Positions 23,795-26,120 of a DNA stretch of 64,000 nt are shown piece by piece. Source of the DNA: Halobacillus kuroshimensis DSM 18393 (GTDB lineage: Bacteria; Bacillota; Bacilli; Bacillales; Halobacillaceae); the NCBI RefSeq assembly GCF_000425705.1, contig NZ_AUDY01000008.1:806001-870000 (forward strand), read 5' to 3'. Under the pieces are notes generated by a model, which saw only the letters and a list, made by a program, of their open reading frames with translations, had not been told where the DNA came from and searched no databases. Numbering within the stretch: the stretch's first letter is position 1; each line of letters opens with the position of its first letter. A program made the translations under genes and the position numbers.

Positions 23795-24943
23795 ATGAGA
23801 ATTATTGTAGCAGGGGGAGATGGTTTCTGCGGATGGCCGACTGCCCTGTACCTATCCAAGCAGGGTCATGATGTAACCATCGTAGACAATTTAGTACGCA
23901 GAAAGTATGATGACGAGCTTCGCTCCAATTCAGTAACACCTATTGCCACACTTGAAGAGCGGGTGGCAAAATGGAAAGAAGTATCAGGGAAAGAGATTAA
24001 AACCTTTATCGGCGATCTCAACCACTATGATTTCCTTAGTGAAGTTTTCCGTCAGGTTGAGCCTGAGGCGTTCGTTCACTTTGCCGAGCAGCGTTCTGCT
24101 CCTTATTCCATGATTGACCGTGAGCATGCGGTGTACACGCAGACGAACAACGTCATGGGGAACTTGAACGTTCTATATGCCATCAAGGATTTCGCACCGG
24201 AATGCCATTTGATCAAACTGGGCACGATGGGCGAATACGGCACACCCAACATTGATATTGAAGAAGGATATATTGAAATTGAACATAAAGGAAGAAAAGA
24301 CACGCTTCCGTACCCTAAGCAGCCGGGCTCTTTCTATCACTTATCCAAAGTGCATGACAGCCATAACATTACGTTCGCCTGCAAAATCTGGGGTATCCGT
24401 GCAACAGATCTAAACCAGGGCATCGTTTATGGTTTACATACCGAAGAGACACGAATGGACCCGGTGCTTGTGAACCGTGTGGACTATGACGGTGTGTTCG
24501 GAACGGCTCTGAACCGCTTCATCAATCAGGCAGCAATCAGGCATGATATTACGGTGTATGGTTCAGGCGGACAGACACGTGCGTTCCTAAACATTGAAGA
24601 TACGGTACGCTGTGTGGAAATCGCCGCTGAAAACCCGGCAGATAAAGGGGAATTCCGTGTATTCAACCAGTTTACAGAATGGTTCTCCGTTCAGGAGCTG
24701 GCTGAAAGAGTTCATAAGATTGCGAAGGAGGAAGGTCTTCAAACAGAAGTGAAGAAGATTGAAAATCCTCGTATTGAGAACGAAGACCATTATTATAATG
24801 CGGTCAATACGAAACTCCGTGACCTTGGTCTGGAGCCTCATCTGCTGACAGACGATGTGATCCGGGATATTCTCCGCACAGCTGTTGAAAACAAAGATCG
24901 TATTATCCAGGAGAATGTTCTGCCATCAATTACCTGGAAGTAA
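23795..24943 (+). CDS. sqdB: UDP-sulfoquinovose synthase SqdB
   Basis: A 382-residue extended SDR very close to plant SQD1 and cyanobacterial SqdB. It converts UDP-glucose and sulfite to UDP-sulfoquinovose, the headgroup donor of the sulfolipid SQDG. The NAD site is [11 protein letters not shown] (residues 5-15). The active site has Thr144 and Glu147 in [18 protein letters not shown] and Tyr181/Lys185 in [12 protein letters not shown], corresponding to the Thr, Tyr and Lys characterised in SQD1. The segments [12 protein letters not shown] and [11 protein letters not shown] are also family-specific. RBS is AGGAGG. It is followed 13 bp later by sqdX. Confidence 0.93.
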
Positions 24944-24956
24944 GGAGTTTTCCGCT

Positions 24957-26120
24957 TTGAAAATCGCCATCATTACAGAAACTTTCCTGCCATCAACAGA
25001 TGGAGTAGTTACAAGACTGAAGGAAGCCATTACGTATCTCCTCAATCAGGATCATGAAGTGGTTGTCATTGCTCCAGATCTTGGTGTGAAGGAATACAAA
25101 GGAGCGATTGTCGAAGGGGTAAAGCCGACAAAACTGCCTTTTTACAGGTCTAAGGAATTCAGCCTGCCACAAAAACGGGTAAAGGATCTGCTGCAAAAGC
25201 ATAATCCCGACCTCGTTCACGTGGTCAACCCAGCCCTTGTCGGAGTCTCTGGTGTGTACTATGCGGATAAGCTGAATTACCCGTTAATTGCTTCATACCA
25301 CACACATGTGCCGAAATACCTGGACTATTACAGGCTTTATCCATTTAAACCACTTGTATGGTGGTACTTCAGAAAGCTTCATAACTACGCCCATGTCAAC
25401 TTATGTACATCACAGGCGATTAAAACGGAGTTGGATGATAAAAACTTCCATAACGTCAGCGTATGGGACAGAGGTGTAGCTGTGGATCATTATCATCCCA
25501 GACACCGGACCGAGACGATGCGCAGTCGTTTATCCAACGGTAAACCAGAAAATAAGCTGCTCGTGTTCGTCGGAAGATTGGCGCCTGAGAAGGAAATCCA
25601 TAAAATCAGGCCGCTGCTGGACGAACGGGAAGACATATCTCTTGCGATTGTGGGAGATGGCCCGGTCAAAGGAGAACTCGAAGAGGCCTTTAAAGGGACA
25701 AACACCGTGTTTACAGGTCTGCTGCATGGAGATGAACTGGCTGAGGCTTTTTCTTCTTCAGACGCGCTTATTTTCCCATCTGTGACCGAAACACTGGGTC
25801 TTGTTATATTGGAGGCTATGGCATCAGGTTTACCCGTCATAGCAGCCAAAAGTGGTCCGACAATGGAGCAGGTGGAAGATGGCCGAACAGGGCTATTATT
25901 TGAAAACGAGAATACAGAAAGCATGATTGAAGCCATCAACCGTTTGGAAGAAACCTCTCTTTATGCCGACCTTTGTAAAAACGCCAGGAAGGAAGCTGAG
26001 AAACACAGCTGGCAGAAACCTTCTGAGCAGATTTTGGACTATTACTACACAACGCTTCGCGTGTATGAGGAAAGTACAGCTCAAACGCCGAAAAAATCGA
26101 AAGTAAAGGTCACAGAGTAA
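24957..26120 (+). CDS. sqdX: Sulfoquinovosyltransferase SqdX (SQDG synthase)
   Basis: A 387-residue GT-B, GT4-family glycosyltransferase. Beyond the generic GT4 motif (SVTETLGLVILEAMASGLPV), it shares the segments YHTHVPKY, VWDRGVAVDHYHPRHR and MRSRLSNGKPENK with cyanobacterial SqdX and plant SQD2. It should transfer sulfoquinovose from UDP-sulfoquinovose to diacylglycerol at the membrane. An upstream in-frame ATG at 24885 lies inside sqdB; the TTG at 24957, nine bases after TAAGGAG, is the better start and gives an N-terminus (LKIAIITETFLPS) matching the family. Confidence 0.87.
   Translation: MKIAIITETFLPSTDGVVTRLKEAITYLLNQDHEVVVIAPDLGVKEYKGAIVEGVKPTKLPFYRSKEFSLPQKRVKDLLQKHNPDLVHVVNPALVGVSGVYYADKLNYPLIASYHTHVPKYLDYYRLYPFKPLVWWYFRKLHNYAHVNLCTSQAIKTELDDKNFHNVSVWDRGVAVDHYHPRHRTETMRSRLSNGKPENKLLVFVGRLAPEKEIHKIRPLLDEREDISLAIVGDGPVKGELEEAFKGTNTVFTGLLHGDELAEAFSSSDALIFPSVTETLGLVILEAMASGLPVIAAKSGPTMEQVEDGRTGLLFENENTESMIEAINRLEETSLYADLCKNARKEAEKHSWQKPSEQILDYYYTTLRVYEESTAQTPKKSKVKVTE

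Follow-up and report, generated by a model that had tools for sequence, protein, structure and literature searches.

A conserved sqdB-sqdX Gene Pair in Halobacillus kuroshimensis, Very Probably an Operon for Sulfoquinovosyl Diacylglycerol, and a Likely Exchange of sqdB in Relatives

Introduction

Sulfoquinovosyl diacylglycerol (SQDG) is a sulfur-containing membrane lipid whose best-known site is the plant chloroplast. Plants and cyanobacteria make it in two steps, and the plant enzyme SQD2 is described as sister to SqdX (PMC8227023). Two major clades of SqdB are already known, with the cyanobacteria divided between them (PMC8227023, PMC6946739). Alphaproteobacteria are described as carrying sqdBDC and sqdA, with SqdA, SqdC and SqdD acting after SqdB (PMC11346425). 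Agl3 of Sulfolobus acidocaldarius, which serves glycoconjugates, may be a distant evolutionary relative of SQD1 (PMC4388408). Closer to the present case, Bacillus coahuilensis has sqd1 and sqdX, and sulfolipids are stated, with data not shown, to occur in the membranes of three strains (PMC4744853). The polar lipids listed for Oceanobacillus massiliensis include SQDG (PMC4062624).

Here we analyzed a 64,000-nucleotide stretch of Halobacillus kuroshimensis DSM 18393 (the window), in which an earlier sequence-only reading had proposed a complete two-gene SQDG pathway. The locus has the same two enzyme types as plants and cyanobacteria (SQD1/SqdB and SQD2/SqdX), a likeness measured for SqdB only, which is 63% identical to Arabidopsis SQD1. 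Unlike those organisms, Halobacillus is a salt-loving, heterotrophic member of the Bacillota without a photosynthetic membrane. The alphaproteobacterial SqdB belongs to the other major clade and has V in place of E147. Its step is homologous to that of the Halobacillus SqdB, whereas the SqdA, SqdC and SqdD that follow it differ from SqdX (PMC11346425). Bacillus coahuilensis, another genus and also heterotrophic, has the same gene pair (PMC4744853).

Results

Layout of the locus

The features are given below by position in the window. L and G numbers used further on are our labels for loci and genomes.

23489..23513, + strand: terminator-like hairpin separating floT from sqdB (terminator scan), a boundary outside the operon
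23531..23556, + strand: P1, SigmaB-like site GTTTAA-N14-GGGTAA (in 11/24 upstream regions; sigB in genome)
23630..23658, + strand: P2, conserved promoter-like element TTGTTT-N17-TAAAGT with TG before the -10 (in 24/24 upstream regions)
23783..23788, + strand: AGGAGG, ribosome-binding site of sqdB (sequence)
23795..24943, + strand: sqdB, predicted UDP-sulfoquinovose synthase of SQD1 type, 382 aa, ATG start (PDB match, residues, tree)
24944..24947, + strand: GGAG, ribosome-binding site of sqdX (sequence)
24957..26120, + strand: sqdX, GT4 glycosyltransferase, probable sulfoquinovosyl diacylglycerol synthase, 387 aa, TTG start (Pfam GT4, clade, linkage, fold)
26111..26139, + strand: hairpin and T run past sqdX, likely terminator (direct sequence reading)
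2585-3181: PlsY-like ORF (judged by eye only)
42196-45783: DynA-like ORF (judged by eye only)

Positions 23795-26120 hold sqdB and then sqdX on the + strand, each with its own ribosome-binding site and with 13 bases between the sqdB stop and the sqdX start, so the adjacency claimed from the sequence holds. The sqdX start was set at TTG 24957, where alignments with relatives begin; the start at 24885 in the ORF list would overlap sqdB. A shared terminator had also been claimed. By direct reading, an 8-bp hairpin at 26111-26130 is followed by GCTTTTTTT, a likely terminator; the terminator scanner reported this hairpin on the - strand only and gave 5 terminator-like sites in the region compared with 6.2 expected.

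The nearest named locus is that of Halobacillus litoralis (L001), with a 98% identical SqdB. The GC content of sqdB (0.465) and sqdX (0.460) matches that of the window (0.463) and the genes are family-wide; a recent gain of the pair by this strain is thus unsupported. Downstream of sqdX lie a 126-aa ORF (26266-26646, + strand) without Pfam or NCBIfam match at 0.001 and a free-standing LAGLIDADG-type gene by Pfam (26852-27706, - strand). LAGLIDADG-like genes near sqdX were also seen by eye in L181 and L183.

Identity of SqdB

Residues 2-382 of SqdB match the solved structures of Arabidopsis SQD1 (1qrr, 1i24) with E about 1e-170. All 14 of the 14 positions checked are identical in the two proteins, and the roles of most of these SQD1/Agl3 active-site positions were taken from PMC4388408. 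SqdB has H95, R100, T144, M145, E147, Y148, S179, Y181, H182 and K185 like Arabidopsis SQD1, which includes the catalytic Thr and the Y-XXX-K of the SDR type and all four residues named before (T144, E147, Y181 and K185). A tree built from 47 chosen rows puts SqdB inside a Bacillota SqdB clade (99/96), with Arabidopsis SQD1 branching next at modest support (83/86). SqdB scored 488.1 bits on NCBIfam NF041015, below the curated cut-off of 575, which counts against the SQDG operon reading; this cut-off is set by the database and is no biochemical feature; it was reached by 0/44 family genomes and 1/14 control genomes. SqdB is predicted to make UDP-sulfoquinovose.

Identity of SqdX

Pfam assigns GT4 domains to SqdX, in line with the GT4, GT-B type of SqdX/SQD2. 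VWDRGV, PRHR and RLSNGKPE were all located in its sequence, where the sequence-only reading had placed them. The best NCBIfam model is GlcN-phosphatidylglycerol synthase at 164.6 bits, a match far below the cut-off of 480 that counts against the SQDG operon reading. A structure model built from 10 sequences had a mean pLDDT of 91.3, and its nearest Foldseek matches were MshA, BshA and other GT4 enzymes. These matches fix the fold, not the substrate and acceptor.

A 56-row tree separates 37 SqdX rows (34 from Bacillota and 3 from Acidobacteria) at 99/99 and, apart from them, 7 paralog rows at 99/99. The rows are hand-chosen representatives, 12 other GT4 rows stand outside the label count, and several branches are very long. 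MR at the MRxRLS position was found in 35/37 SqdX rows compared with 0/7 paralogs; ETLGLV occurs in 37/37 SqdX rows and ETFGNV in 7/7 paralogs. MR and ETLGLV are presumably shared with Arabidopsis SQD2. The name SqdX is therefore probable, resting on linkage to SqdB, co-occurrence and these presumed SQD2 motifs, and this basis of the name also counts against the SQDG operon reading.

A cyanobacterial SqdX was not found among plasmids, where 75 records matched, all at less than 60% identity (27-34% for the best 20 of the 75). One of these 20, a GT4 protein from Planktothrix, was placed outside the SqdX clade in the 56-row tree. Among viral contigs, none of 81 pattern matches was confirmed as SqdX.

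Linkage and co-occurrence

A search with SqdB found 86 loci, of which 80 were analyzed (72 from Bacillota and 8 from elsewhere). The SqdX frame is directly downstream of sqdB in 72/72 Bacillota loci, among them that of Salinicoccus hispanicus (L037). Sprott et al. (2006), who studied Marinococcus halophilus and Salinicoccus hispanicus, reportedly identified SQDG in the latter; our literature search for sulfoquinovosyl lipids of either species found no paper. At L080:5950-7147 (Lentibacillus sp. CBA3610), sqdB is split over two frames by damage or sequencing error.

No SqdX was found near sqdB in any of the 8 non-Bacillota loci. A search of 12 genomes or records found a distant SqdX (41-46%), unlinked to sqdB, in 3/8 of the non-Bacillota genomes with SqdB and no clear SqdX in the other 5/8. 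That these 8 genomes have either a distant, unlinked SqdX or no clear one counts against the SQDG operon reading.

We then surveyed 398 Bacilli genomes, scoring at most 4 candidates per genome. Both genes were present in 56 and neither in 340. One genome had SqdB only (G368) and one an SqdX-like gene only (G125); these two break the co-occurrence and were counted against the SQDG operon reading. Canonical SqdB (at least 556 bits) was held by 55 genomes, a divergent form, SqdB2, by 2, and SqdX by 57. The pairs are linked and co-directional in 51/56 genomes, 45 in the order sqdB-sqdX and 6 in the reverse order. SqdX is thus linked to SqdB and co-occurs with it, as expected of an SQDG synthase, although the 398 genomes are related and a Fisher value for co-occurrence overstates their independence. 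Nine genomes with weak SqdB relatives (205-254 bits, 34-40% identical; G066, G115, G128, G163, G196, G228, G247, G283 and G398) were excluded from the SqdB count; SqdX was found at 1e-70 in 0/9 of them.

Canonical-level SqdB and SqdX occur together in 54/398 of the sampled genomes. The pathway had been put forward as remarkable in a heterotrophic Firmicute, a view that we do not share given this count and the precedents published for Bacillus coahuilensis (sulfolipids and the genes for them; PMC4744853) and Oceanobacillus massiliensis (SQDG; PMC4062624). Such reports weaken the surprise.

Likely replacement of sqdB in relatives

Within the Halobacillus family, SqdX was found in 44/44 genomes and an SqdB of either type in 44/44. 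Canonical SqdB (at least 487 bits) is present in 41/44. The other three (G015, G016 and G018), which belong to the same genus as the window, have only an SqdB match of 335-339 bits elsewhere in the genome; the next-best SqdB match in any of the 44 genomes was 53 bits. Their gene order is floT-sqdX, with sqdB absent between. The bases that precede sqdX in L182 (G016) read VLPLITWK-stop, compared with VLPSITWK-stop at the end of the window's sqdB, a remnant which indicates that sqdB formerly stood at the floT-sqdX locus and was then lost. L181 and L183 retain just the last few bases of sqdB before sqdX.

The divergent SqdB2 has 410-412 aa and in L178 lies beside a TraB-family gene and an adenine deaminase gene. 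In two other Bacilli families, the genomes G430 and G058 likewise have SqdB2 and an unlinked SqdX, with canonical SqdB absent; G058 has an additional weak SqdB relative of 235 bits. The SqdB2 genes are as follows.

L178:6752-7984; L179:6114-7349; L180:6854-8083; L184:6752-8269; L187:6671-7903: alphaproteobacterial-type SqdB in genomes with sqdX and without canonical sqdB

In the 47-row SqdB tree, the five SqdB2 rows cluster together (99/94). Their neighbors are Rhodobacteraceae M382 (71% identical to L178) and Sinorhizobium meliloti (64%), and a Rhodococcus plasmid SqdB (61%) falls outside all of these rows. V replaces the E147 of plant-type enzymes in the SqdB2, Rhodobacteraceae M382, Sinorhizobium meliloti and Rhodococcus rows. 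The comparison relatives on this side of the tree are all plasmid-borne and do not fix the donor. On a Rhodobacteraceae plasmid (L222:4001-7764), sqdB is followed by genes for a sulfotransferase and a PAPS reductase, which suggests a possible sulfite supply next to the synthase.

Combining the class survey (57 genomes) and the family (44), with G000 counted once, gave 100 genomes with SqdX. Canonical SqdB without SqdB2 was found in 94, SqdB2 only in 5 and neither in 1 (G125). SqdB2 is therefore present in 5/6 SqdX genomes without canonical sqdB compared with 0/94 with it (hypergeometric 8e-8, though the five genomes represent at most three lineages). This natural swap supports UDP-sulfoquinovose as the substrate of SqdX. 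We consider it likely that the sulfolipid pathway of Bacillota is modular and kept by selection, such that the plant-type sqdB was lost and a transferred SqdB of alphaproteobacterial type, encoded elsewhere, feeds the old SqdX. With similar confidence, we place this event in one Halobacillus subgroup and two further Bacilli lineages. In the sulfolipid literature searched, little of which search was aimed at the swap, no mention of an sqdB swap in Bacillota was found.

Neighboring genes and upstream region

FloT was found in 10/80 loci, all from Bacillota (10/72) and all Halobacillus (L001-L009 and L011). The remaining 9 named Halobacillus loci for which 6 kb of upstream sequence was available (L012-L020) lack it; the contig of L010 is short. 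FloT also precedes sqdX in the three sqdB-less genomes. The flotillin gene is thus in front of the pair as claimed, but at 10/72 Bacillota loci the link looks like local chance. Flotillin as a functional partner was rejected on this count and on the terminator-like hairpin between; it is a stable neighbor in a subgroup. The PlsY-like and DynA-like ORFs said to share the window are present, 16-21 kb away and judged by eye.

A SigmaB-like promoter had been seen upstream. Its site is present (P1) and the genome has a SigmaB gene (438 bits, cut-off 315), but P1 occurs in only 11/24 Halobacillus-genus upstream regions (window, L001-L009 and L019) and in 0/3 of the sqdB-less ones, whereas the SigmaA-like element P2 is in all 24. 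The pattern TTG-N20-TAAAGTC was found in 24/24 of these regions compared with 2/4800 mononucleotide-shuffled sequences; the 24 are close kin, so this count shows conservation rather than independent hits. Because the three sqdB-less genomes also have it, the sqd upstream element has been kept before sqdX. We infer that P2 is an extended -10 SigmaA promoter. Beyond the 20 named Halobacillus loci, the upstream core was found in 1/60 loci, with 5 mismatches. A riboswitch at the conserved block was rejected (5 Rfam matches with E of 1.2 to 4.3, all far below gathering scores), as was a multi-copy regulon (1 genome copy at up to 3 mismatches).

Predicted pathway and sulfite supply

With bound NAD, SqdB would convert UDP-glucose and sulfite to UDP-sulfoquinovose, and SqdX would move the sulfoquinovose onto diacylglycerol, the predicted acceptor, at the membrane. 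The predicted lipid product, SQDG, is anionic and free of phosphorus, could share the role of phosphatidylglycerol and may act under salt or phosphate stress. The source of sulfite would be assimilatory sulfate reduction by CysH and Sat. The genome encodes CysH (298 bits, NCBIfam cut-off 165; the APS reductase model is just exceeded, 243 compared with 235) and, directly after it, Sat (566 bits, cut-off 387). The Pfam control was positive in 14/14 genomes, so the NCBIfam result is the one that counts.

Discussion

We hold it highly likely that sqdB and sqdX form a two-gene operon for SQDG. The match to SQD1, the SqdX clade, the adjacency and co-occurrence of the genes, the replacement by SqdB2, the presence of CysH and Sat and the records from related genera all argue for it. 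The two-gene proposal of the sequence-only reading is well supported in this respect by the SQD1 match, linkage, co-occurrence and both trees.

Other uses of the pair were weighed. SqdB could make UDP-sulfoquinovose for an SqdX whose acceptor is a cell-wall glycan, a protein or phosphatidylglycerol, giving a glycoconjugate instead of SQDG. UDP-sulfoquinovose is described as used for glycoconjugates in Sulfolobus (PMC4388408), a GT4 fold does not by itself determine the acceptor, and the best NCBIfam model of SqdX, though below its cut-off, acts on phosphatidylglycerol. However, SQDG or sulfolipids are on record for related genera (PMC4062624, PMC4744853) and by eye no wall-glycan genes adjoin the pair in the window, and we regard a glycoconjugate as unlikely.

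It is still less probable that SqdX is a glucosyl-, glucuronosyl- or GlcN-lipid synthase standing beside sqdB by chance. The same genome does encode a paralog 36-38% identical to SqdX, followed by a UDP-glucose 6-dehydrogenase-like gene (L186:5750-8206), but linkage and co-occurrence of SqdX with SqdB are near-perfect, SqdX and the paralogs fall in separate clades marked by ETLGLV and ETFGNV, and sqdX was retained where sqdB was replaced. That the pair is a non-functional relic, as the broken sqdB frame of the relative L080 might suggest, is hardly credible, since both frames are intact here and both genes are strongly conserved across the family. As for the paralog, it and its neighbor are perhaps a glucuronosyl lipid pair; a UDP-glucose 6-dehydrogenase-like gene is near the paralog in 8/16 other paralog genomes, in one of them split in two frames.

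To return to the SQDG operon, the pair is very probably a real and well-conserved one, and the trait is mostly ordinary and already known in related bacteria. What is new here is the apparent exchange, in some close relatives, of sqdB for a different bacterial type. If true, heterotrophs would provide a case of natural complementation between the two great clades of UDP-sulfoquinovose synthase. The exchange also offers a ready way of testing whether SqdX can function with both types of SqdB. As far as sampled, the Halobacillus family joins the heterotrophs with a plant-like sulfolipid pathway, and Halobacillus may be a handy model for the role of SQDG without photosynthesis, be it in salt, in phosphate saving or as a stand-in for phosphatidylglycerol.
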